The position numbers and the translations under genes were made by a program. From assembly GCF_029960785.1 (NCBI RefSeq), contig NZ_JASBQE010000015.1:1-64000 (forward strand): DNA of 64,000 nt. Direction: 5' to 3'. This document shows, one piece after another, positions 8,662-55,269 of the stretch. Source of the DNA: Polyangium sp. 15x6 (GTDB taxonomy: Bacteria; Myxococcota_A; Polyangia; Polyangiales; Polyangiaceae). The notes beneath the pieces were generated by a model that saw nothing but the letters and a program-made list of their open reading frames with translations, was not told where the DNA came from and searched no databases. How positions within the stretch are numbered: the first letter of the stretch is position 1; each line of letters starts with the position of its first letter.

Positions 8662-11600
8662 ATGGAAAACCTAGAGCTTCGTTTCGCAGCGAAGGACATC
8701 AACCTCTCCGTGCGGAGCTTTTCGGTCGTCGAGGAGATGTCGACGCTCTTCGACGTCTCGCTCGTCGCGCGATCGGCGGACGAGGACATCGATCTCGACG
8801 CCCTCGTCGGAAACGGCGCGGGGTTCAAGGTCGCGGGCGGCCTCGCCTGGACCGGCGTCGTGCAGTATGCCGAGCAGATCGAGGTCGAGCCCGACGGGCT
8901 CTCGACGTACTTCCTGCGGATCGTGCCGGCGCTCTGGCGCACCTCGCAGCGCCGCAACCAGCGCATTTTCCAGCACCTGTCGATCCCCGACATCACGAAG
9001 AAGCTGCTCGCGGACTGGGAGATCGAGCCCGTGCTCGAGCTCGACGCGGGCACGTTCCCGAAGCTCGAGTATCGCGTGCAGTACGGCGAGACCGACTTCG
9101 CGTTCCTCTCGCGTCTGCTCGAAGAAGCGGGCATCAGCTACCATTTCCGCGCGCCGGATCCGGGCAGCGAGACGCCGAGCAAGCTCGTCCTCGTCACCGA
9201 TCCCACCGTGCGCGAGGCCGGCGCGCCGCTGCTCTACGTGAACAACCTCGAGCACGCGAAGTCGCGCGACGCGATCACGCACGTAAAGGTCTCGCACCAG
9301 GTGCGGCAGGGCCGCATGACGCTGCGCGATCACGATTTCCGCAGGCGGCCCGACTTCCAGCTCATCGCCGAGTCGAAGTCGACGTTCGATCAGGAAGATC
9401 GATACGAGAGCTACAGCTACGTGCCCGGCGCGTTCGTCGTGGATCCGGGGCGCGTCGACGAGCGCGAGGCCAAGGCGCTCGCGGCGCGCAGGCTCGACGG
9501 CACGCGGCAAGGCCGCCGCAAGGTCCTCTTCCAGACGACCGCGCTCGGCCTTTCACCCGGCGACGTGTTCTGCATGGAAGGGCATCCGCGCGAGGATCTC
9601 GCCAAGGAAAAGCGCCTCCTCCTCGTGCAACGCACGCTCGAAGGGACGAGCGAGGGCGACTGGTCGAGCACGGGCACGGCGGTGTTCGCCGACGATCCGT
9701 ACCGGCCCGTGTCCGTCACGCCGAAGCCGCGCATGGGCGGCCTCCAGAGCGCGGTCGTCACAGGGCCGCCCGGCGAGGAGATCCACGTCGACGAGTACGG
9801 CCGCGTGCGCGTGCAGTTCCACTGGGATCGCGAGGGCAAGTACACGGACGAGAGCTCGTGCTGGATCCGCGTGAGCCAGGTCTGGGCCGGGCGCGGTTAT
9901 GGCAATGTCGCGATCCCGCGCGTCGGGCAGGAGGTCCTCGTCGATTTCCTCGAGGGCGACCCCGATCAGCCGATCATCGTCGGCCGCGTCTTCAACGGCA
10001 CCTCGCCGCACCCGTACAAGCTGCCCGATCACAAGACGAAGACCTCGTGGAGGAGCGATAGCTCGCCCGGATCCGGCGGCTTCAACGAGATCACCTTCGA
10101 GGACGCCAAGGGGCGCGAGAGGGTGTTCATGCACGCGCAGAAGGACCGCGAGGAGGTCGTCCGGGAGAAACACACGCTCCAGGTCGGCACGGATCTCGAC
10201 GTGCAGGTCGGCGAGCGCGAGACGCGCAAAGTGGGCGCGGATCAGACGCTGCACGTCGTCGGCAGCCGCACGACGCGCGTCGAGCAGAGCGACGTGCTCG
10301 TCGTCGGGGGCGAGTGCCACATCCAGGTCGGCGAGACGGGCGCGTCGCTGTCGAACGATCGGGTCGTGCTCTCGACGGGCAAGGCTTCGCTCACGCTCGC
10401 GGGCGGCGACATCTTCCTCGACGCGAGCGGCAGCATCAAGGTGAGCGCCGGCGGGCTCGCGGGGCTCGCGGGGCGCGAGGTGCACATCGACGGCGCGCCG
10501 AACGTCCTGCTCAACACCGCGGGCGCGAGCTCGCCCGTGCCGATGTCGCTCGGCGCGGCCGAGATCAACCTCGCCGATCTCTCGTTCCCCGAGGCCGTGA
10601 ACAACGCGGCGAAGGCGCTCCAGGCGAAGATTTTCGACGAGATCCCGGGCGGCTTCGACGAACAGGCCGTCGAGGGAGCGCTCCGGCGCCTGCTCGAAGA
10701 GCCGCCCGCCTCGCTCGCGGACGCGCCGGGTTACTTGATGGTGCCCGAGGCCATCAACGAGCAGCTCCAGGGGGCGATCGACAAGGTGCTCGGCGTGCCG
10801 GGCGTGATCGTGGACGACATCCTCGATCGCGTGGCGCTCGAGCAGAAGAAGCTCCAGGAGCGCATCGATCAGATCCGCGCGCGGGCCGGCGAGATCGCGG
10901 GCGACGTGCAGGAGAAGATCCGCGGCGCGGTCGAGGATCTCCGCGCGCGGGCCGAAGCCGCGAAGCAGATGGCCATCGCGAAGTTCGAGGAGGTCAAAGC
11001 CAAGCTCGAAGCCGCCAAGGCGCAGGTGCAGGCCAAGATCCAGGAGCTCCGCGGCAAGCTCGAGGAGGCCAAGGCGCGCGCCGTGGCGATCGTCGAGGAG
11101 TTCAAGGGCAAGCTCGAAGCGGCGAAGGCGGCCGTGCTCGGCAAGGTGGCCGAGGTGAAGGAGAAGTTCGCCGAGGCCAAGGCGCGGGTGCAGGCCAAGA
11201 TCGACGAGATCAAGGGCCGCATCGAGGCCGTCAAGGAGCAGGCCAAGGCGAAGATCGAGGAGATTAAGGGCCGCATCAACGACCTCAAGGAGCAGGCCAA
11301 GGCCAAGGTGCAGGAGATCAAGGAGCGCGTGATCGCGCTCAAGGATCAGGCCGTCGAGCGCTTCCAGGAGATGAAGAAGCAGGCGGGCGAGATCATCGAG
11401 ATGGCCAAGACGCAGGTCGAGGCCGCGAAGGCCCGCGTGCAGGAGCTCAAGGCGCGGATCGAGGGCGCCAAGGAAGAGGTCAAGCAGAAGGTCCAGGAGT
11501 GGAAGGGCAAGGTCGAGGAGTGGAAGGCCCAGGCCAAGGCCAAGGTCGAGGAGATCAAGGGCCAGGCGAAGGCCGTCGTCGAGGAAGTGAAGGGCCAGAT

Positions 11601-12540
11601 CGAGAGCGCGAAGGAGACGGTCAAGCAGACCATCGCGGACGCGAAGGAGGTGGTCGCCGACATCAAGGCCATCCCGAAGGAGTTCGTCGCCGAGACGAAG
11701 GCCGCGTGGAACGAGATCAAGACCGACGCGAAGGAGACCTGGAACCAGACCAAGGCCGACGCCAAGCAGACCTGGGAAGAGGCCAAGGAGACCTGGAAGC
11801 AGACCAAGGCCGACGCCAAAGAGACCTGGAACCAGACCAAGGCCGACGCCAAGCAGACGGTCGAGGACGCGAAAGAGGCCTGGAAGCAGACCAAGACCGA
11901 GGCGAAGGAGACCTGGAACCAGACGAAGGACGAATTCAAGCAGGCGGGGCAGGACGCGAAGGACGCCTGGAAGGACATCAAGGGCGACGCGAAGGACGCC
12001 TGGGGCGACATCAAGAACGAGGCCGAGGACTTCTGGGGTGACCTCGAGGGCCAGGGCAAGGACGCCGCCGAGGGCACGAAGGACGCACTCGGCGCGGCCC
12101 AGGATCAAGGCCAGGGCGCGCTCGGCGACGTGAAGGGCGCGCTGCAGAACGCGTTCGGCGGGAACGGTTCGAATGCGCTTTCGGGCCCGCAGGTGAACCT
12201 CGGCCAGGGCGCCGCGCCGGACGGCGGATCGCTCGGGCAGATCGTCTCGCGCGCCGGTGGTTTCACGGGCGACGACGTCGCCTCGGCGATCAACGGGGGT
12301 TCGAAAGGCGCGACGATCCTGCAGAGCCCCGGCGAGGGTCAGCTCTTCGTGATGAAGACGCAGGGCGCGGTGCCGGTCTCGGGCACCGAGCTCGAGGCGA
12401 ACCTCGTCGAGGCGCAGATGAACGGGTTTTCATCGAGCGACGCGTTCATTCACACCCTCACGAAGAAGGGATACGTGGTCTACGAGCGGCCCTGGGGCGA
12501 GCTCGCCGAGGCCTTCGTGAAGCGCGCCGCGGTCATTTGA
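8662..12540 (+). CDS. vgrG: VgrG/TssI T6SS spike protein with very long helical tail
   Basis: This 1292-residue protein begins with a normal VgrG. Residues 1-350 are the gp27-like region ('VQYGETDFAFLSRLLEEAGI' is the family signature). Residues 359-451 are the gp5 OB-fold (VHVDEYGRVRVQFHWDR type, GFEVLVDFLEGDPDQPIIVGR type). Residues to about 617 form the beta-helix needle. From about 735 to 1130 the chain is a highly charged amphipathic helix rich in Lys, Glu, Ala and Gln with 11-residue periodicity, resembling LEA or apolipoprotein sequences; ETWNQTKADAK-type units recur near 1020-1080. A small globular domain ends the protein (about 1210-1292). The spike pierces target membranes; the tail may be an effector, a scaffold or cargo carrier. 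No catalytic motif is visible in it. First gene of a three-gene tip cassette. Confidence 0.95.
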   Translation: MENLELRFAAKDINLSVRSFSVVEEMSTLFDVSLVARSADEDIDLDALVGNGAGFKVAGGLAWTGVVQYAEQIEVEPDGLSTYFLRIVPALWRTSQRRNQRIFQHLSIPDITKKLLADWEIEPVLELDAGTFPKLEYRVQYGETDFAFLSRLLEEAGISYHFRAPDPGSETPSKLVLVTDPTVREAGAPLLYVNNLEHAKSRDAITHVKVSHQVRQGRMTLRDHDFRRRPDFQLIAESKSTFDQEDRYESYSYVPGAFVVDPGRVDEREAKALAARRLDGTRQGRRKVLFQTTALGLSPGDVFCMEGHPREDLAKEKRLLLVQRTLEGTSEGDWSSTGTAVFADDPYRPVSVTPKPRMGGLQSAVVTGPPGEEIHVDEYGRVRVQFHWDREGKYTDESSCWIRVSQVWAGRGYGNVAIPRVGQEVLVDFLEGDPDQPIIVGRVFNGTSPHPYKLPDHKTKTSWRSDSSPGSGGFNEITFEDAKGRERVFMHAQKDREEVVREKHTLQVGTDLDVQVGERETRKVGADQTLHVVGSRTTRVEQSDVLVVGGECHIQVGETGASLSNDRVVLSTGKASLTLAGGDIFLDASGSIKVSAGGLAGLAGREVHIDGAPNVLLNTAGASSPVPMSLGAAEINLADLSFPEAVNNAAKALQAKIFDEIPGGFDEQAVEGALRRLLEEPPASLADAPGYLMVPEAINEQLQGAIDKVLGVPGVIVDDILDRVALEQKKLQERIDQIRARAGEIAGDVQEKIRGAVEDLRARAEAAKQMAIAKFEEVKAKLEAAKAQVQAKIQELRGKLEEAKARAVAIVEEFKGKLEAAKAAVLGKVAEVKEKFAEAKARVQAKIDEIKGRIEAVKEQAKAKIEEIKGRINDLKEQAKAKVQEIKERVIALKDQAVERFQEMKKQAGEIIEMAKTQVEAAKARVQELKARIEGAKEEVKQKVQEWKGKVEEWKAQAKAKVEEIKGQAKAVVEEVKGQIESAKETVKQTIADAKEVVADIKAIPKEFVAETKAAWNEIKTDAKETWNQTKADAKQTWEEAKETWKQTKADAKETWNQTKADAKQTVEDAKEAWKQTKTEAKETWNQTKDEFKQAGQDAKDAWKDIKGDAKDAWGDIKNEAEDFWGDLEGQGKDAAEGTKDALGAAQDQGQGALGDVKGALQNAFGGNGSNALSGPQVNLGQGAAPDGGSLGQIVSRAGGFTGDDVASAINGGSKGATILQSPGEGQLFVMKTQGAVPVSGTELEANLVEAQMNGFSSSDAFIHTLTKKGYVVYERPWGELAEAFVKRAAVI

Positions 12541-16364: not shown

Positions 16365-19300
16365 ATGGCTTATGGTTCCGAACCGTCGAGAACCCCGTTG
16401 TCCCGGGGGTTGCTCCCCCTGTTCGTGGTGCCTTTCTTATTCGTGCTCCTGGCCTGCAGCCAGGGAGCCGACGATCTTCCTCCGCGCGGCTCGGACCCGT
16501 CGATGGGCGGCGACAATGGCGTGGGGGGCGCGGGAGAAGGCGGTTTTGGGGGCGAAGGCGGATCGGGCGGCGCGCCGGCGCTTTGCCAGGAGGGCCAGAA
16601 GAAGACGTGCACCGTGGAGCTCGGCGAGCACAACGGCGTGAAATCGTGCTTCAAGGGCGTCCACGTCTGCAAGAATGGCAAGTGGGGGCCGTGCCAGGAG
16701 GACAAGGCTTCCCTCGCCCCGGGCGGCGCGCCCAGTGAAAAACCCGCGCCTCCGGGCAGCAGCGTCCTCGCCGATTGCGCGAACAACCCCTGTGATCCCT
16801 CGTGCCAGGTCTTCGACGAGGATCCGCCCGGGGGGCTCAAGCCGTTCGCGCAGACGCCCATTTTCACGTGGCAGACGGGTGATCTCGGCAATTATCCGCC
16901 GGACCTCGTCGCGCAGGGCGTGGGCCAGCCTTGCGACGAGGGCGTCGATTGCCAGTTCAATCAATACTGCTCGGCGCCGGTGTTCGGCACGTGCAACCAC
17001 AACAAGTGCGCCGTCGGCGCGCCGCTCGGGTACGGCTGCGATCCCTGCGTGGACGACATCTGCGCCATCGACCCGACGTGCTGCGAGACGTCGTACGGCG
17101 GGACGTGCGGCCACGATTACTGCGAGGTCGGCGCGAAGCTCACGGACGGCTGCGACCCGTGCGTCAGCGCGATCTGCGACGTCGATCCGAAGTGCTGCGG
17201 TCTGCCGACCTGGGGCACTTGCAGCCACGATTATTGCAAGACGGGCGGCTCGCTCACGACCAATTGTGATCCTTGCGCGGCGACCGTCTGCGCCGACGAT
17301 CCGAAATGCTGCAACCTGGGCACGACCGGCACGTGCTCGCACGGGTATTGCTCGACGGGCGCCGCGCTCGTCCCGGGGTGCCATTCGTGCGTGGCCGACA
17401 TCTGCGCCGCCGAGCCGAAGTGTTGCGACTTCACGCCGGGCACGGTCGCTTGCACGCACGATTACTGCATCACGGGCTCGAAGCTCAACGCGGCCTGCGA
17501 TCCGTGCGTCGCCGCGGTGTGCGCCGCGCAGCCGAGCTGCTGCAACAATACCTGGAACTCGACCTGCGTGAACCTCGTCGCGTCGGTCTGCCAGCAGAAC
17601 GACAAGTGCCCTTCGCCGAAATGGACGTCGTCCTGCGTGGACAAGGTCACGACCGTCTGCGGAAACTCGTGCACCGCGGGCTGGGCGCAGCGATGCGTCG
17701 ACAAGGTCCCCGCCTTGTGCGGCAAATCCTGCGATCCGGCGAGCTGGACCGCGGACTGCGTGGACAAGGTCGGCAGCGTGTGCGGCAAATCGTGCGGGCC
17801 GTTCGCGTGGGACTCGGCCTGCGTGGGCATGGTCGACACCGTCTGCGGCGCGAAGTGCTACCAGGATCCGCCTTGCTCCCACAACAAATGCGACTCGGGC
17901 GAAAAGCTCGATCCGGCGTGCGATTCGTGCGTCGCCACGATCTGCCAGGAGCTGCCCGATTGCTGCAACGTCGCCTGGACGAACCTCTGCGTCGACCGCG
18001 TGAAGACGCTGTGCGGCCAGGGCTGCCCGGTCAAAGGCGACTGCGTGCCTTGGTTGCCTGGACAGACCGATCCGGAGTGCGCCGGCTACGACCTGTCGAT
18101 CGGCGTGCCCTGCAGCGGGTCGGTGCCGGTGTGCAACCACGGAAACACCGCGGTCCCCGCGGGCGTGAAGCTCATCCATTACGCCGCGGGCTCCGGCCAG
18201 TTCGGCAAATGCAACCCGAACCAGGCGCTCGCCGGCGTCCAGAGCTGCACGACGCCGAGCCCCATTCCGCCTGGGAAATGCATCAACGTCCCGGCCGCGA
18301 GCTGCGGCCTCGGCGCCTCGAAGCGCGAGATCATGGTGAACCCGCCGAGCTACGGCGGCTACACGCAGCTCGACGAATGCCTGTGCCTCGACAACTGGGC
18401 GTCGTTCGCGCCGAACGTCGCCTGCGGCTCGCCGAGCTGCTCGAACACGACGACCGCGACGGTCAAGCGCGTGAACATGTTCGTCGCCCTCGACCGCTCG
18501 GGCTCGATGACCACGGACATCGGCGGCGGCGAGACGCGCTGGTCGGCGACCGTGAAGGCGCTGAAGAAATTCTTCCAGGATCCCGGCTCGGCCGGCCTCG
18601 GCGTCGCGCTCCGGTTCTGGCCCGACAACGCGCCGGTCTCGGGCTGCAACGACACGAGCTGCAGCGCCACGGCCTGCCGGTCGCCGCTCGTCGACGTCGG
18701 CATCCTGACGCTGCAATCGGCGCCGGCCGACGCCCAGGAGAAGAAGCTCGTCGACGCCGTGAACGGGAAATCGCCGAACGGCAACACGCCCATGTACCCC
18801 GCGCTCTCGGGCGCGACGCAATGGGCCATCAATTACAAGAATGCGAACCCGAACGAGGACGCCATCGTGGTCTTCGCGACCGACGGCGATCCGGTCGGCT
18901 GCAACGAGAACGAGTCGGACATCTCCGACCTCGCGGGCAATGCGTTCTCGACCAAGGGCATCAAGACGTACGCGATCGGCATCCAGGGCGCGAACCAGGC
19001 GTTCATGAACCAGATCGCATCGAAGGGCGGCACGAAAAAAGGCTTCTTCGTCGCGCCCGGCGGGAACGTCGAGAACGAGCTGCTCTCGGCGCTGATCCAG
19101 ATCAAGGGCGATACGCTCTCCTGCGATTTCGTGGTCCCGAACGGCGGCGTTTACGATCCGAGCGCCGCGAAGGTCACCTTCACGCCGACGTCGGGCGCGC
19201 CGGTGGTCCTCGGCAACGTGGCCTCCGCGGGGGCCTGCGGGGCGGGCTGGTATTACGACGACCCGGCGAACCCGGCCCAGCTCAAGCTTTGCCCCTCGAC

Positions 19301-29596: not shown

Positions 29597-30802
29597 ATGC
29601 ACCCCTTGTTCACGCTGGAGGGCCGCAAGGATCCTCACCCCATCTACAAACGCCTCCGGGCCGAAGAGCCCATCTCGAAGGTCATCGAGCCCTATCGGAA
29701 AGTGCCCTTCTGGCTGCTCACGCGGTACGCCGATTGCTCCGACATGCTGCGGGATCCACGCTTCGGCAAGGATTTCACCCAATGGCCCCCCGAGGAGCGT
29801 TCGCGCCTGCGCGTAGCGGGCGAATTCGACGTGCTCGGCAAGCACATGCTGGCGGCCGATCCGCCGGACCACACGCGGCTTCGCTCCCTCGTGGCCAAGG
29901 CCTTCACGCCGCAGATCGTCGAGGGTCTCCACAGCCGGATCTCCACGATTGCGGAGAACCTCGTCTCGGCCGCCCTCGCGCGCGATTCGAGCGGGATGGA
30001 CCTCGTCTCGCAGTTCTCGTATCCGCTGCCCGTCACGGTCATCGCCGAGATGCTCGGCGTTCCAGCCGCGGACCAGGACGATTTCCGGCGCTGGACCACG
30101 ACGCTCTTCACGCCCGCGGACACCGAGGAGCAGCTCGCGCACCTGCGCGCCACCGGATTCGAGTTCTTCCAGTATTTCATGGCGCTCATCGAGCGCCGCA
30201 GGGCCGAGCCGAAGGACGATCTCGTGAGCGGGCTCGTGGCGGCCGAGGAAGGCGGCGATCGTTTGAGCACCCAAGAGCTCGTGGGAATGCTCTTCCTCCT
30301 GCTCGTCGCGGGCCACGAGACCACGGTCAATCTGATCACGAACGGCATGCTCGCGCTGATGGATCACCCCGAGGAGCGCGAGCGCCTCGTCGCCGCCCCG
30401 TCGCTCCTCGAATCGGCCGTGGAGGAGATGCTGCGATATTGCGGGCCAGTGGAGACGACGACGTACCGCTTCGCGCTGGAGGACGTGGAGATCGGCGGGG
30501 TGACGATCCGAAAAAACGAGCTCGTGCTGGCATCGCTGCTCTCGGCCAATCACGACGAATCACGCTTTCCGGACCCGGACCGCTTCGACGTGGGGCGAAA
30601 GCCGAACAAGCACATCGCATTCGGCTACGGGATCCATTTCTGCCTCGGCGCGCCCCTCGCGCGGCTCGAAGCGGTCATCGCCGTGGACACGCTCCTCCGG
30701 CGCCTGCCACGGATGAAGCTTTCCGTCCCGCGCGAGACCCTCGAGCCGAGCTCGATGCTCCTGCTGCTGCACGCGAAGAAGCGATTGCCCGTCCAGTTCT
30801 AG
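29597..30802 (+). CDS. cytochrome P450
   Basis: This 401-residue soluble bacterial P450 has the I-helix 'LLVAGHETTVNLI', the K-helix ExxR in EEMLR and the heme loop 'FGYGIHFCLGAPLARLE', where C349 is the heme ligand; 'ADPPDHTRLRSLVAKAFTP' is the C-helix signature. It is close to the CYP107-like class that hydroxylates secondary metabolites or lipids. The start ATG 29597 gives the normal length; the huge upstream frame is antisense to the desaturase gene. No ferredoxin gene is adjacent. Confidence 0.95.
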   Translation: MHPLFTLEGRKDPHPIYKRLRAEEPISKVIEPYRKVPFWLLTRYADCSDMLRDPRFGKDFTQWPPEERSRLRVAGEFDVLGKHMLAADPPDHTRLRSLVAKAFTPQIVEGLHSRISTIAENLVSAALARDSSGMDLVSQFSYPLPVTVIAEMLGVPAADQDDFRRWTTTLFTPADTEEQLAHLRATGFEFFQYFMALIERRRAEPKDDLVSGLVAAEEGGDRLSTQELVGMLFLLLVAGHETTVNLITNGMLALMDHPEERERLVAAPSLLESAVEEMLRYCGPVETTTYRFALEDVEIGGVTIRKNELVLASLLSANHDESRFPDPDRFDVGRKPNKHIAFGYGIHFCLGAPLARLEAVIAVDTLLRRLPRMKLSVPRETLEPSSMLLLLHAKKRLPVQF

Positions 30803-30810
30803 TCCAGGCC

Positions 30811-31140
30811 TGAAGCCGCTGCGCTGGGGCGTTGCCCCAGGCCCCACCAGGGGCTATCCGCCCCTCGACCCGGACCAGCCAGGGGCTGGACCCGGGGTCG
30901 ATGAACTGCGCGATGCGCAGTTCATCGAACAGGCCGAGTCAAGACCACCCACCACCCTGCCAACCAAGACAGCCGCGCTGCCCTTTCGACGGGCGAGGCG
31001 GTCCAACGGGCCCGTTGGAAGAACTGCGCGGAGCGCAGTTCTTCCACCCTCGGTCCAGGCCGTGCCTGGTCCGGGTCGAGGGGCGGACAGCCCCCGCGGG
31101 GCCCGGGGCGGCGCCCCGGCGCGGCGGCTCCAGATGAGAG
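30811..31140. repeat. paired inverted intergenic element, family A (first pair)
   Basis: The 353-bp gap between the convergent P450 and histidine-kinase genes is filled by two head-to-head copies of a roughly 120-bp element. The left copy (about 30811-30950) holds hairpins at 30824-30840 and 30898-30928 (14-bp perfect stem, GAT loop). The right copy (about 31000-31140, reversed) has its matching hairpin at 31017-31045 (13-bp stem, GGA loop) and the same GC-rich outer part containing ATCCGCCCCTCGACCCGGACCAG-like sequence. 88 bp lie between the hairpins. The same element recurs at 38171-38290 and 54266-54585. There is no coding potential and no U-tract. Confidence 0.85.
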
Positions 31141-31155
31141 ACCCGTACTTCAGGT

Positions 31156-33036
31156 CTAGACCTGGTCGCTCCCTGGCGGCAGCGGGAGTTTTACGCAAAA
31201 GGTCGCGCCCTTTCCCTTCTCGCTCGAGACGGAGATCGTGCCCTTGTGCGCTTCGACGATCGCGCGGCAAACGAAGAGGCCCGCGCCGAGCCCGGCGTGT
31301 GCGTCCTGCCTCCGCTGGAACGGCTCGAAGATCCTCTCCTGCTCCTCCGGCGTGATGCCGACGCCGCGATCTCGCACCGAGACGACCGCGAAGCCCGGCT
31401 CCTGGCCGATCGATATCGTGATCGGCTGTTTGCTGCCGAATCGCGCCGCGTTCGACAGGAGGTTCACGAAGACCTGCTCGAGGTGCACCCGATCCCAGTG
31501 ACCGTACACGGGGCCCTCGCTCTGGATTTCTGCGGTGCACCCCTCGGCCGTGAGCTCTGCCTGCATCTTCCGCGCGACGTTCCGTACGAGCTCCTCGATC
31601 TCCACACGCTCGAGGTTCAGCACCGCGTTGCCCGCGGCGACGCTCGACAGGACGAACATGTTGTTGATGACCTGCGTCATCCGGCGAAGCTCGCGCGTCG
31701 AGACCTTCAAGAATCGGCTGACGTCCGCCTGGCTCATCGCGGGCGTCGCGTCCTCGGGGCGGGGTCGAAGCATGTATTCGTAAAGGAGCCGCAGGCTCGT
31801 CAGCGGCGTGCGGAGCTCGTGCGACGCGAATCGCAAGAACTCTTCGCGCGCGTGAACCGCGCTCTCGAGCTCGCCCTCCACGCGCTGGAGACGGTCGATG
31901 CGCTCCTCGAGCTCGGTCCGGAGCTCCCGCTCCCGAGCCAAGCTGCGGCCGAGGGCCTTCGCGCGCTGCTGCAAAATGAGGGTCAGCACGAGCGTGATGC
32001 CGAGTCCGACGATGAACGTGCGCAGGACGACCTTGCGCGTCGCGGTGAGGGCACCGTAAGCCTCCGCCTTGTCGAGCTCGGTCGCGATCCCGAGCTGGAG
32101 CTCCGGATCCCATACCCAGGCCCCGATCACCTCCACGCCTCGATAATCACGATAGCCGTCGACGTCGATCCCGGATTTCCCGGTGACGGCGCTCATGGCC
32201 ATTCTCGTCAAGGGCTGCCCCGAGCGGGGTACGTCGGAGCGAAAGCCGCGGAGCATGTTGCCGCCCGGATCACGCAGCTCGATCTCGTGGCTCGAGTGCT
32301 GGCCGGCCGCGAGCAACCCGATGTCGCGCAGGAGCGGCTCGAACCGGCTCTCCGTCGCGAGGCGCGCGTGACGATCGAATGCATACGTCTCGCCCGTCTC
32401 GCCGACCCGGCCCGACTGCGTGATGCGCGAGAATTCTCCGGTGGGATCGATACGGAAGACGAGCGCCGCCACGATCGCCCCGTCCTCGTCGCGCACGGGC
32501 GTCGCGACCAGCATCGTCGGGACGTCGACCTCCAGGTTTGGGTCGCGCATGAGAAAGGGCGCTCCGGTCACGGTCGAGCCACGAAGCGCCGCGGTGAGGG
32601 TCTCCGGATCCAGGCGGCTCAGCGTGTTCGTCGCGACGGCGTCGCCGTGATCGGAGGCGATTTCAATGCCATCCGGGGCGATGATGTCGAAGCCCATGTA
32701 CTGCTTCTGCTGGACGACGTCCCGCAACAAGCGCCGCAGCTCGCCGAGGTACGGGCCCTCGTGGAGCGCCCCTCCGCCGCTCCGGCGCTTCGACTGCGCC
32801 AGGACCGCGCGCCGCACGCCGGCCTCGCCCGCCCAGCTCTTCGCCGTCGCCTCCATGTGCCGCTCCCAGGTCACCAGGCCCTCGCGGGTCGCTGCGAGCA
32901 CCGTCTGTACGGTCGCCGCGGCCTGGCGGCGGTGAATCGCGTCGATCTGGGACAAGCCAATCCACGTGCTCAGACCGATTGGCACGAGCATGACCAGGAA
33001 GAGCAGCCAGTCCGCACGTTGGGTCTCGACTTTCAC
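31156..33036 (-). CDS. sensor histidine kinase with extracytoplasmic Cache-like domain
   Basis: This 626-residue inner-membrane kinase has TM1 (WLLFLVMLVPIGLSTWIGL), a 300-residue periplasmic region with Cache-type features ('FDIIAPDGIEIASDHGD', 'VDVPTMLVATPVRDEDGAIV') and TM2 ('TFIVGLGITLVLTLIL'). A coiled coil, H-box 'FASHELRTPLTSLRL', N-box 'NLLSNAARFG', G1 'DRGVGI' and G2 'GLGAGLFVCRAI' follow. It senses a small ligand and phosphorylates an unidentified partner; no response regulator is adjacent. GTG 33036 gives a natural membrane start; the open frame up to 33159 is non-coding in character. The start has no good ribosome-binding site. Confidence 0.9.
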   Translation of the reverse strand: MKVETQRADWLLFLVMLVPIGLSTWIGLSQIDAIHRRQAAATVQTVLAATREGLVTWERHMEATAKSWAGEAGVRRAVLAQSKRRSGGGALHEGPYLGELRRLLRDVVQQKQYMGFDIIAPDGIEIASDHGDAVATNTLSRLDPETLTAALRGSTVTGAPFLMRDPNLEVDVPTMLVATPVRDEDGAIVAALVFRIDPTGEFSRITQSGRVGETGETYAFDRHARLATESRFEPLLRDIGLLAAGQHSSHEIELRDPGGNMLRGFRSDVPRSGQPLTRMAMSAVTGKSGIDVDGYRDYRGVEVIGAWVWDPELQLGIATELDKAEAYGALTATRKVVLRTFIVGLGITLVLTLILQQRAKALGRSLARERELRTELEERIDRLQRVEGELESAVHAREEFLRFASHELRTPLTSLRLLYEYMLRPRPEDATPAMSQADVSRFLKVSTRELRRMTQVINNMFVLSSVAAGNAVLNLERVEIEELVRNVARKMQAELTAEGCTAEIQSEGPVYGHWDRVHLEQVFVNLLSNAARFGSKQPITISIGQEPGFAVVSVRDRGVGITPEEQERIFEPFQRRQDAHAGLGAGLFVCRAIVEAHKGTISVSSEKGKGATFCVKLPLPPGSDQV

Positions 33037-38097: not shown

Positions 38098-38170
38098 CGG
38101 GAGCACTCTGGCAGCGACCGCGCGTCGGTCAACGGGAGCTGCTGAGCATTGGTTTCATCTGGGGGCGCTT

Positions 38171-38290
38171 CGCTGGGGCGTTGCCCCAGGCCCCACCAGG
38201 GGTTGTCCACCCCTGGACCCGGGGCCTGCGCAAGCGCTGGACTCGGGGTCGATGAACTGCGCGATGCGCAGTTCGTCGAACAGGCCGCAG
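38171..38290 (+). repeat. single copy of intergenic element family A
   Basis: It lies in the 386-bp divergent gap between the ABC ATPase and VOC genes. Positions 38171-38202 are identical to 30822-30853, and 38249-38279 form the same hairpin (14-bp stem with one G-U pair, GAT loop) followed by the same AACAGGCC edge. No reversed partner is recognisable in 38291-38483, so it is a solo copy. The rest of the gap shows nothing clear; the promoters for both flanking genes must lie in it. Confidence 0.8.
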
Positions 38291-38483
38291 CTACCGCCCC
38301 GGCCGGTGCGTGGGGCAACAGTTCCGAGGTGCAGGATTTTGTCTCGGGGGACCGATGAGTTTTTCCTCGGCCCGGGGTCCAAGGACGTGAAGCACCTCCG
38401 CGGGGAGTTGTCGTACGCTCTCGACGAACCCGGCCGCTCCCGTGGTTCCTCCGTCACGTTGGCGAGAACAGCGAGAAAAGACC

Positions 38484-38984
38484 ATGCAAAACAGGTTTCA
38501 GCGCATCACGCCGTTCCTCTGGTTCGACACGCAGGCCGAGGAGGCGGTGAAGTTCTACACGTCGATCTTCCCGAACTCCCGGATCATGATGGCCACCCGG
38601 TACAGCAAGGAGGCCGCGCAGCAGTCCGGCCGGGCGGAAGGGTCGGTCATGACCATGGGCTTCCAGCTCGACGGGCAGGACTTCACCGCCATCAACGGCG
38701 GCCCGCAGTTCACGTTCAGCGGGGCGATCTCGTTCGTCGTGCATTGCGAGAACCAGGAAGAGGTGGACCACTACTGGAACCGCCTCACCGAGGGCGGTGA
38801 CGAGAAGGCCCAGCAATGCGGCTGGCTTCGCGACCGCTTCGGGGTGTCCTGGCAGGTGGTGCCGAAGCAGCTCGTCGAGCTGCTCTCGGATCCCGACCCG
38901 AACCGAGCGCGAAGGGCCACGATGGCCATGCTCGGGATGAAGAAGCTCGACATCGCCGCCCTGCAAAAGGCCGCGGCGGGCTGA
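38484..38984 (+). CDS. VOC family protein, PhnB/3-demethylubiquinone-methyltransferase-like
   Basis: This 166-residue cytoplasmic protein has 'RITPFLWFDTQAEEAVKFYTSIFPNSRI', 'GSVMTMGFQLDGQDFTAINGGPQF', 'SFVVHCENQEEVDHYWNRL' and 'CGWLRDRFGVSWQVVP'. These are the hallmarks of the PhnB-like VOC subgroup (often misnamed 3-demethylubiquinone methyltransferase). The fold is a paired beta-alpha-beta barrel that binds a metal or small ligand; activity is unknown. ATG 38484 starts the conserved part. Its stop lies 14 bp from the convergent carboxypeptidase gene. Confidence 0.9.
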   Translation: MQNRFQRITPFLWFDTQAEEAVKFYTSIFPNSRIMMATRYSKEAAQQSGRAEGSVMTMGFQLDGQDFTAINGGPQFTFSGAISFVVHCENQEEVDHYWNRLTEGGDEKAQQCGWLRDRFGVSWQVVPKQLVELLSDPDPNRARRATMAMLGMKKLDIAALQKAAAG

Positions 38985-53835: not shown

Positions 53836-54258
53836 GTGCCGGCCTCCCCCGCCAACGCACCCAACACGGCCGAAGATGCAGAACCCGCTTCGAGCACCAA
53901 GTCGAAAGAGCTTGACTTTGATCGTTACATGCGTCTCGCCGATGCGGCGCGCGCTGCGGGCTCTAACGAGATGGCGCTGCGGGCGTACCCGCACGCCCTG
54001 CGGGTTCGGCCGGGCGAACCCACGGCGCTTGGCCGGCTCGGGCTTTCCGCGGCAGCGGCCGGCGATTGGGTGATGGCCACGCGCTACCTCTTCGAGGCAA
54101 TGTTGGACGATGGCGGCGCAACCCCGGAGGAGGCGCAGATATTCTCGAGCACCTTCACGCGTGCTCGAGGCGAGGTCGCCAAGGTCAACGTGACGGCTGA
54201 CACGCTCGGCGCCTCCGTATGGCTCGACGGGAACGAGCCGCCGATCCCGAAAGGCTGA
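53836..54258 (+). pseudogene. truncated TPR/PEGA-type protein gene
   Basis: The 140-residue frame has a TPR helix pair ('DFDRYMRLADAARAAGSNEM', 'ALRVRPGEPTALGRLGLSAA') and a short beta tail 'VAKVNVTADTLGASVWLDGN' that is the beginning of a PEGA domain, then stops after 'EPPIPKG'. Full-length myxobacterial members have a signal peptide, complete PEGA and a TM segment. Here the N-terminus has no signal, the start is GTG with no ribosome site, and the C-terminus ends just before element family A at 54266. It is most simply a gene remnant cut at both ends, though a short expressed protein cannot be excluded. Confidence 0.55.
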
Positions 54259-54265
54259 ACCGCCC

Positions 54266-54585
54266 GCCGCGCCGGGGCTCTGCCCCGGGCCCCGCGGGGG
54301 CTATCCGCCCCTCGACCCGGACCAGCGCAAGCGCTGGACCTTTAGGGGAAGAACTGCGCGATGCGCAGTTCTTCCCACAGGCCGGTGCCAAGACCAGGGA
54401 CGGTGTTGCCGGCCACGGCGACCTCAGTTGGCAGGATCACAACTTGTCTTGCCTCGACCTGTTCGATGAACTGCGCATCGCGCAGTTCATCGACCCCGGG
54501 TCCAGCGCTTGCGCTGGTCCGGGTCCAGGGGTGGACAACCCCTGGTCGGGCCCGGGGTGAAACCCCGGCGCTACGGCTGCCCGAT
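54266..54585. repeat. paired inverted intergenic element, family A (second pair)
   Basis: The 333-bp gap between the TPR remnant and the convergent lipoprotein gene holds two reversed copies. The left copy has hairpin 54346-54376 (14-bp stem, GAT loop), the right copy hairpin 54463-54493 (14-bp stem, ATC loop, i.e. GAT read from the other strand). Both copies continue outward into GC-rich sequence matching 30840-30890, including TATCCGCCCCTCGACCCGG on the left. The inner sides share ACAGG.CG..GC.AAGAC, and the right copy has CCTGCCAAC as does 30955-30963. The centre between hairpins is 86 bp, against 88 bp in the first pair. Confidence 0.85.
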
Positions 54586-54591
54586 GGGGCC

Positions 54592-55269
54592 TCAGGGCTG
54601 CTTGGGCCAGGCGCGGACGAAGGTCGAGAAGAATGGCAATGCGTGGGCGGAGGGGTGGGGGTCGACCTGGGTGTCGACGCCGCTCCGCGTGCTGGAGAAA
54701 TCTCCTTCCCACACGATGGCGCCCGAGGTTGTATCGACGATCGACACCTTCCCTGAAAGCGTGGATTCGACGGCGTTGCCGCCCATGCTCCCGGCGCCGT
54801 GGACGGTTTGCTCGTAATGCAGGCGCGCCAGGACGAAGTATCGCGCGTCGAGGGAGGCCTTGAGCTCGGCGAGCCGGCTCGGGTCGGTGCCTCCTTCCTC
54901 GTAGACACGCAGGTACTTGGACTCTTCTTGGAGTGCACCCTGGAGGGCTTGATCGTGCTCGGCGTTGCTGACGATCGGGATGTCTTGTCGGTTCTGCCGG
55001 GTCGCGCGAATGAACTGCGCGACCACCAGCGAGCGCTCCCTGGGGCCCACGTGGGTGGTGTCGAACTTCACGGGCATGATCGCGATCCTGCCCGTGACGA
55101 GCTCCTTGGAGGTGAATGCGGGATCCACGCGGAGGTTCGTGGGCTGCCAGGCGCAGCCTGCGACGACGCCGAGCCCGAGCATGGGCATCGCGGCGATGAG
55201 CAACGTGGAGGCCGCGCGCTTGATGCGACCAAGGTATTTCGATGACTGCGAGGAGTGCATATCGTTCAC
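54592..55269 (-). CDS. predicted lipoprotein, unknown function
   Basis: This 225-residue protein has an N-terminal charged stretch, hydrophobic core 'LLIAAMPMLGLGVVAGC' with lipobox VVAGC, then a compact domain ('VTGRIAIMPVKFDTTHVGPR', 'LDARYFVLARLHYEQTVHG', 'STLSGKVSIVDTTSGAIVWE'). The pattern of a beta strand, 'ARLH', then 'IVDTTSGAIVWEGDF' resembles the CsgG/FlgO/LpoB-like group of outer-membrane lipoproteins, but I would not name a family with confidence. GAGGG precedes GTG 55269; ATG 55260 is an alternative start. Confidence 0.75.
   Translation of the reverse strand: MNDMHSSQSSKYLGRIKRAASTLLIAAMPMLGLGVVAGCAWQPTNLRVDPAFTSKELVTGRIAIMPVKFDTTHVGPRERSLVVAQFIRATRQNRQDIPIVSNAEHDQALQGALQEESKYLRVYEEGGTDPSRLAELKASLDARYFVLARLHYEQTVHGAGSMGGNAVESTLSGKVSIVDTTSGAIVWEGDFSSTRSGVDTQVDPHPSAHALPFFSTFVRAWPKQP

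Follow-up and report, generated by a model that had tools for sequence, protein, structure and literature searches.

The BIMEs and ERIC-like elements of enterobacteria are mosaic palindromic elements that often lie at the 3' ends of genes. Related arrangements are known elsewhere: in the accessible parts of the two reports, the REPINs of Pseudomonas (PMC3116915) and the GTAG and CGTC REPs (PMC3733652) form inverted doublets of palindromic units around a variable spacer, and the latter lie predominantly in convergent and tandem spacers. BrickBuilt, from Porphyromonas gingivalis, is a MITE with an internal minisatellite that the accessible text of PMC4596501 describes as small, repeated, intergenic and bounded by inverted ends. 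For the IS50/Tn5 group, the group table in PMC2266710 gives lengths of 1350-1550 bp, CW ends, direct repeats of 8-9 bp and the end consensus CW------Y---CA-A--W-.

A repeat family of Polyangium, which we call Family A, can be compared with the REPINs and REPs, BrickBuilt and the IS50/Tn5 group. It shares with the REPINs and REPs the inverted doublets with a variable spacer, and with the GTAG/CGTC REPs the preference for convergent and tandem spacers; unlike either, as far as those partial texts go, it has a unit of four stem-loops without a tag tetranucleotide, and its ends, like its target duplications, are those of a DDE element rather than of a RAYT system. It is small, repeated and intergenic with inverted ends, as BrickBuilt is, and can hold a tandem array inside, although only in rare long forms. 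The organism and the sequence are different, the repeat of the array measures 43 bp against the 23 bp given in the accessible text of PMC4596501, and the array of Family A is flanked by two four-hairpin units. Family A departs from the IS50/Tn5 group in that it has no transposase itself and in that two copies (L288 and L300) have 10-bp duplications. MITEs, IS50-group elements and REP doublets in convergent or tandem spacers are known kinds, the last from the accessible parts of PMC3733652 and PMC3116915. What appears to be new in Family A is that REP-like multi-hairpin doublets are joined with Tn5-like ends; our searches of open-access text found no such case and no paper on Family A. A REP-like hairpin family would thus be tied to a named DDE transposase group through visible ends and target duplications, and its spread would be directly testable rather than assumed to be the work of RAYT. 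We conclude that Family A is very probably a MITE (non-autonomous DNA transposon) family of Polyangium related to an IS4-family, IS50-group element, an assignment that rests on common ends, target duplications, empty sites and full-length Tn5-like transposase genes in congeners.

The window, by which we mean the whole 64,000-bp stretch that was analysed from the 13.4-Mb genome of Polyangium sp. 15x6 (G000), contains the following features.

29606..30802, + strand: cytochrome P450 gene (Pfam p450, E 6e-35; home-made gene call)
30815..31128, no strand: core of a probable MITE (doublet) of 314 bp, made up of left unit, spacer and inverted right unit
30815..30936, + strand: left unit with four stem-loops (covariance-model match of 135.6 bits, E 4.8e-24; the unit is itself in the model)
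30825-30839, 30847-30867, 30875-30889 and 30898-30928, + strand: SL1, SL2, SL3 and SL4 of the left unit (consensus fold mapped via the alignment)
30937..31007, no strand: variable spacer separating both units
31008..31128, - strand: right unit, with SL4 at 31016-31046 (covariance-model match of 100 bits, E 5.5e-17; the unit is itself in the model)
31129..31155, - strand: what is probably left of a degraded right terminal repeat, reading GGTCTCTCATCTGGA on the - strand (by-eye comparison with the intact end CTGAGCATTGGTCTCATCTGGGA)
31156..33036, - strand: sensor histidine kinase gene, convergent with the P450 gene (HisKA and HATPase_c)
38142..38163, + strand: nearly intact terminal repeat, TGAGCATTGGTTTCATCTGGGG at 38143-38164 (2 mismatches against the end motif)
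38164..38287, + strand: single unit, probably half a MITE (covariance-model match of 134.8 bits; unit in the model)
54263..54384, + strand: left unit of a third probable MITE (covariance-model match of 120.4 bits; unit in the model)
54455..54577, - strand: right unit of the third probable MITE (covariance-model match of 146.2 bits; unit in the model)

The doublet at 30815..31128 lies between two convergent genes. A gap of 12 nt separates the TAG stop of the P450 gene from the left unit, whose terminal repeat is unrecognisable, and the TAG stop of the kinase gene lies directly beyond the remnant of the right terminal repeat. A first-pass annotation of the window had described two reversed copies of an element of roughly 120 bp at this site. 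The units are real, at about 122 nt each, but each is better read as one arm of a single MITE, an element that has terminal repeats and is flanked by target duplications. The inward hairpins that it pointed out are indeed present as two perfect 14-bp stems with 3-nt loops, 87 bp apart, and they sit within 100-bp inverted arms that are 81% complementary. Its recurrence of 30822-30853 at 38171-38202 is exact over 32 nt, and the five copies of the hairpin core that it counted in the window compare with 0.16 expected from shuffles. At the third probable MITE, a 140-aa ORF that has no gene call (53836-54258, +) lies immediately upstream of its left unit, and its right unit is 14 nt from the TGA stop of a gene call at 54592-55269(-). 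The single unit at 38164..38287 is located where synteny with the congeners breaks, the synteny blocks stopping near 38.1-38.5 kb. Within 38100-38500, long blocks shared with the congeners G002, G004 and G005 stop just before the unit, and the block shared with G003 stops at the unit's end, which suggests that the repeats mediate rearrangement.

Family A extends far beyond the window, as the first-pass annotation had supposed in proposing a family. With two mismatches or fewer allowed, the 15x6 genome has 532 hairpin cores against 6 matches for a reversed-pattern control, a difference that excludes chance. The five Polyangium congeners have 59, 463, 385, 241 and 247 copies (controls 3-5), and the other 33 of the 38 relatives scanned have 0-3 hairpin cores each, which is the control level. 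The covariance-model search that had been proposed as a check agrees: with model R1 and 91 candidates scored per genome, Family A was detected at E 1e-4 in 6/6 Polyangium genomes and in 0/33 others. A scan of genome contigs found at least 74 stretches that carry the family, all of them from Polyangium among the matches listed. Neither the 50,697 phage records nor the 72,556 plasmid records searched gave a match, and one scan of viral contigs with an exact pattern gave none. Family A is genus-specific to Polyangium. Because draft contigs often terminate inside these repeats, the copy numbers are probably too low.

In the consensus fold, the unit of about 122 nt forms four stem-loops in a row. 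Units that lie less than 300 bp apart almost always face each other with their arms outside and SL4 inside (52 of 53 pairs; one pair has the same direction and none is back to back). Doublets account for 78 of the 91 units sampled in 15x6, their cores have a median length of 319 bp (n=104), and the whole doublet folds as a long hairpin (z -13.4). SL2, SL3 and SL4 each exist in several sequence versions, nearly all of them paired: those of SL3 are CCAGCGC/GCGCTGG, CCAGGGC/GCCCTGG, CCAGGC/GCCTGG and CCAGCC/GGCTGG, and those of SL4 include CGATGAACTGCGC, GGAAGAACTGCGC, TTGAAAAACTGCGC, GCATCGACTGCGC and TGCATCGACCGC. Some copies are longer. Long forms have a 43-bp repeat in about 8-10 tandem copies, and each copy could fold into a small hairpin (GAGGACG..CGTCCTC, GAGCACG..CGTGCTC). 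In 15x6, such arrays were found at five loci (C22:175594-175960, C23:10.5-10.9 kb, C7:10.5-10.9 kb, C198:299.4-299.9 kb and C239:5.66-6.04 kb), all of which adjoin Family A units, on both sides in C22, C23, C239 and C198, and a further locus is listed in G004 (C20:286.6 kb). P. fumosum has a different array, of period 64, in a comparable position. Another small insert (GGTCAACGATGGGGC...) is nested in or beside SL2 of some units (G004b 24.1 kb, G005b 71.1 kb, C23:22.8 kb and C7:31.3 kb).

The ends of the element are recognisable in a minority of copies. Of 285 units, 42 have the outer motif TGAGCATTGGTCTCATCTGGGA, where shuffles gave none; the motif occurs 38 times in the 15x6 genome (control 0), and all 30 occurrences that were fetched adjoin a unit. 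Two-unit copies with both ends (n=19) carry variants of CTGAGCATTGGTCTCATCT at both ends and measure 320-392 bp, too short for a transposase gene. We scored target duplications of 8-11 bp with at most one mismatch between end pairs 230-2300 bp apart; the resulting rates apply to copies with recognisable ends, that is, to loci fetched by the end motif or where both ends were listed. Duplications were found in 21 of 31 distinct end pairs, compared with a mean of 0.8 and a maximum of 4 in 200 reshufflings. They flank 13 of 19 two-unit MITEs shorter than 450 bp, mostly at 9 bp, 1 of 2 longer two-unit forms, 5 of 5 complete IS copies and 2 of 5 other pairs, namely a 252-bp derivative and a 2090-bp element; six of the ten pairs that have no duplication are two-unit MITEs. 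In a set of 19 doublets with some form of the motif at both ends, the flanking 9-mers are identical at 4.0 of 9 positions against a null of 2.83 (sd 0.31). Individual duplications reach 9/9 at L232 and 8/9 at L234, L236 and L237 in 15x6, and in congeners 9/9 at L286, L287, L290, L294 and L299 and 10/10 at the MITE copies L288 and L300; failures are L301 (0/9), L292 (6/9) and L226 (4/9). When all 104 doublet cores are taken together and their ends ignored, no target duplications are seen (z -0.2), as would follow from the loss of most ends.

The targets themselves show raised symmetric pairing about their centre (5.9/10 vs 4.3, sd 0.4). This is partly explained by six of the 21 duplicated sites, which fall in SL3-like hairpins of Family A itself. 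Insertion into pre-existing hairpins is not a general rule, as the other 15 sites have no excess of folding (3/15 with z below -1.5, controls 25%).

Empty sites are found both at the window and elsewhere. The window site is empty in G002, G003, G004 and G005, where the P450 and kinase genes are present with no Family A hairpin and the gaps between the aligned flanks are 7, 47, 48 and 119 bp; G004 has other small hairpins there. In G001 the P450 gene is present and the kinase side has no match. Other sites are likewise filled in some species and empty in others. With copies in the hundreds, gene ends that have the element in one sister species and not in another make up a natural experiment, one that would measure the effect of a hairpin module on transcript ends and show how a palindrome can change its sequence and yet keep its pairing. 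Two sites point to DNA having been replaced or deleted at the element: at about 126.8 kb and 141.4 kb of G003:C114, a doublet stands in place of other DNA, whose counterpart is about 1.9 kb in G000 and G005 or about 0.86 kb in G005. The anchor at C198:205-209 kb gave no synteny.

A candidate for the source of the transposase is found in the congeners. In G005, the ends CTGAGCACTGGTCTCATC and CTGAGCATTGGTTCCATC, nearly identical to those of the MITE, lie 1504 bp apart at four places. The IS that they enclose encodes one transposase, a 475-aa protein with Tn5 DNA-binding, DDE and Tn5-dimerisation domains (Tnp_DNA_bind, DDE_Tnp_1 and Dimer_Tnp_Tn5), which scores 254.6 bits against the IS4 model NF033590 (cut-off 160). 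A structure search returned the Tn5 transposase 1mus at E 2e-36, and Tn5 transposases are its sole relatives at E 0.001 among solved structures. Two of the G005 copies have 9/9 duplications, one has 8/9 and one at best 7/8 (L284). G002 has an open relative of 1503 bp, 84% identical, with AACCAGGGC duplicated; an IS junction that both have suggests that G002 is Polyangium sp. 6x1. These features, together with CT ends and the motif Y(2)R(3)E(6)K in the form YSQRWRIEDFFRTWK, are those of the IS50/Tn5 group in the accessible part of PMC2266710. Against the consensus CW------Y---CA-A--W- of that source, compared by eye, C1, T2, T9, A16 and T19 match at both ends and C13 at one end only; position 14, matched by neither end, is a point of difference. 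By the evidence of its sequence, the partner IS belongs to the IS4 family, IS50 group (Tn5-like), and we infer that its transposase moves the MITE.

Of the 60 nt compared at the ends, only about the first 19 bp are common to the IS and the MITE, so the comparison does not identify the MITE as a deletion derivative of the IS; the ends of Tn5 are 19 bp long. Elsewhere, transposase matches are partial: many in G003, most of them where contigs stop, which is what a repeat that interrupts assembly would give, some in G001 and only two in 15x6, with none in G004. Several IS copies are inserted in SL3 of Family A units (GGCACGGCC in CCAGGCACGGCCTGG), which makes Family A a target of its own probable mobiliser. 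The loci at which IS copies and the 252-bp derivative lie within SL3 are L283, L285, L293, L296 and L303.

Family A is found mainly at the 3' ends of genes. We counted positions in about 0.87 Mb of the 15x6 genome and 1.1 Mb of congeners, with genes called by a home-made codon-usage caller; densities are biased, as part of the 15x6 stretches had been chosen for listed hairpins. A gene reads into the arm side of 108 of 151 sampled units, and 94 of these 108 start within 40 nt of the stop codon. The arm side faces a gene start in the other 43, two of them within 40 nt. By spacer type, 27 of 49 doublets are convergent, 18 tandem and 4 divergent, against length shares (elements included) of 12%, 55% and 33%. 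In tandem spacers, 15 of 18 doublets lie within the quarter nearest to the upstream stop (KS p 6.5e-8). The distance from stop to unit is mostly 0 to about 30 nt and varies with the trimming of the outer end; at five units, the gene call ends on the TGA of the terminal repeat itself.

These observations suggest the following mechanism. A two-ended copy consists of a 19-bp end (CTGAGCATTGGTCTCATCT and variants), a four-stem-loop unit, a variable spacer, and then unit and end reversed, and it would be mobilised in trans by an IS4-family, IS50-group (Tn5-like) transposase, with insertion staggered by 9 bp or sometimes 10 bp. Copies lie mostly behind stop codons and often between convergent genes, with each gene entering a unit at the arm side. 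The transcript of a flanking gene would then end in four GC-rich hairpins with no T run, and a doublet between convergent genes would offer the same kind of structure to each. A scan for T-run (intrinsic) terminators found none at the window doublet, its single hit (31293-31277) falling within the kinase gene, and no promoter-like site was seen at the doublet. Over time the outer end may be lost and the copy become immobile, with SL1-SL4 usually remaining paired. Such remnants could serve as U-less 3'-end structures in termination, 3' protection or the insulation of convergent transcription. We consider this role plausible, and about as probable as having no function.

The pairing of the stems bears on this question. 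A covariance model built from 10 units gave 152 matches in 1.62 Mb, of which 150 were aligned. In this alignment, which was fitted to the structure, standard pairs fill 95.1% of the cells against 85.0% in shuffles, and substitutions that keep the stems thus far outnumber those that break them, in line with the first-pass proposal. Changes on both sides affect 24 of 39 pairs compared with 16.8 in shuffles, and the covariation score is 0.259 against 0.094, falling to at most 0.034 when the partner is slid by one to three columns; one helix, the foot of SL3, has lower pairing (75.1%). An alignment of 281 distinct units made from sequence only has 8400 of 8450 core cells in Watson-Crick pairing, compared with 89.7% for sides that vary independently. 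Over all units, the variability of stem columns is about half that of the remaining columns (0.113 vs 0.243). Within the window, the differences between the stem variants GATGAACTGCGC and GAAGAACTGCGC are matched by changes in the opposite arm, as had been noticed at the outset, and one of the five copies (38249-38279) has a one-sided change, GTTCGTC.

The paired changes had also been read as a sign of selection for structure. The covariation is strong, but it does not by itself prove selection for an RNA structure, and the G-U counts argue against ordinary selection at the RNA level. G-U pairs are the usual intermediates of RNA helices; in SL4 they are no commoner than other mismatches, which leaves RNA-level selection unsupported. 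The SL4 mispairs comprise 3 G-U, 10 A-C and 13 others among 3720 cells. A second count gave 4 G-U, 9 A-C and 7 others among 2055 cells, with a hairpin finder that, by choosing the best stem, trims off mismatches at the stem foot; a finder that treats G-U as paired gave 11 G-U of 27. Exchange among hundreds of copies, or a process acting on the DNA, could produce the same pattern of pairing. Family A may thus serve as a warning that strong covariation is not in itself evidence for RNA.

If the outer end marks mobility, pairing does not track it, as units that retain an end are not the better paired. SL4 is fully paired in 61 of the 66 units (of 91 sampled in 15x6) that have no recognisable end, and in 42 of the 49 such units among 60 from relatives, compared with 23/25 and 6/11, respectively, of the units that retain one; the trimming finder described above underlies these counts also. 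At orthologous gene ends (21 groups), the finder that treats G-U as paired shows different SL4 stems in 45 of 65 unit comparisons, with both stems fully paired in 23 and at least one non-Watson-Crick cell in 22; the remaining 20 have an identical, fully paired SL4 stem.

The alternative that survives best accepts the MITE and denies its remnants a function: insertions elsewhere would have been removed by selection, and the stems would look perfect because the families are young or are made uniform by exchange among hundreds of copies. We regard this as a serious possibility, though somewhat short of probable. The location behind stop codons could reflect purifying selection on insertions rather than function, and the scarcity of doublets in divergent spacers (4/49) agrees with this. 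Species differ in their SL4 family at the same gene end, and at one gene-end site the two subtypes have changed places between species, a pattern that exchange or repeated insertion would produce. The lack of G-U enrichment fits as well, as does the fast evolution of the spacer, which at orthologous copies at other sites diverges far more than the units. Moreover, genes that have no element are not generally trailed by strong hairpins: 15% of 108 such genes fold with z below -2 in the 60 nt past the stop (mean -0.49), compared with 6% for a coding control. Harder to reconcile with functionless remnants is the fact that, at sites shared between species, where flanks are 73-97% identical, 52 of 61 units have no recognisable end and 46 of these 52, as counted with the trimming finder, still have a fully Watson-Crick SL4. 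The reduced variability of stem columns also speaks against it, as does the variable trimming of the outer end beside a unit that stays near the stop codon, as if the unit alone were kept.

A stronger reading, which we put forward only tentatively and think rather unlikely, is that the MITE has been domesticated across the genus as an exchangeable 3'-end module whose hairpins are kept Watson-Crick perfect by a process at the DNA level. Mobile ends would have been lost and the four hairpins behind stop codons retained. The process might be a function of cruciforms or single-strand hairpins, or copying between arms and between copies, and the sequence of a stem would be free to change while its pairing would not, even at a single gene.

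It is improbable that Family A is instead a structured RNA, a cis element or small RNA selected as such at gene 3' ends, with mobility incidental. The strong covariation and the orientation and distance relative to the stop codon would suit such an RNA; against it stand the transposon features and the fact that, even with the sense strand known, SL4 shows no preference for G-U over A-C. Nor does any known Rfam family account for it, as Rfam 15 gave 0 matches above the gathering score in the window and, with E allowed up to 1, four that fall far short of their gathering scores.

A REP/REPIN family of the kind that RAYT, a Y1 HUH transposase, moves in Pseudomonas or E. coli would account for the head-to-head doublets, the long hairpin of the folded doublet, the intergenic position and the restriction to one genus, and PF01797 does match in G001 (2) and G003 (1), but as an account of mobility this reading can be dismissed on the terminal repeats with 9-10-bp target duplications, the absence of PF01797 matches from G002, G004 and G005 (15x6 has one partial match) and a unit of about 120 nt against the 20-60 given for REPs in the accessible part of PMC3116915. 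Nor are the tags conserved: GTAG occurs within the first 12 nt of 27 and CGTC of 49 among 285 units, and the commonest SL4 flanks are not tags. The partial match in 15x6 (G000:C74:3078-3251, L016) covers positions 63-121 of the Y1 transposase model and looks IS200-like by eye. The window also contains direct tandem repeats at 10936-12011 and 16985-17858, which have periods divisible by three (21/33/54, 114 and about 63 nt) and probably lie within repetitive proteins.
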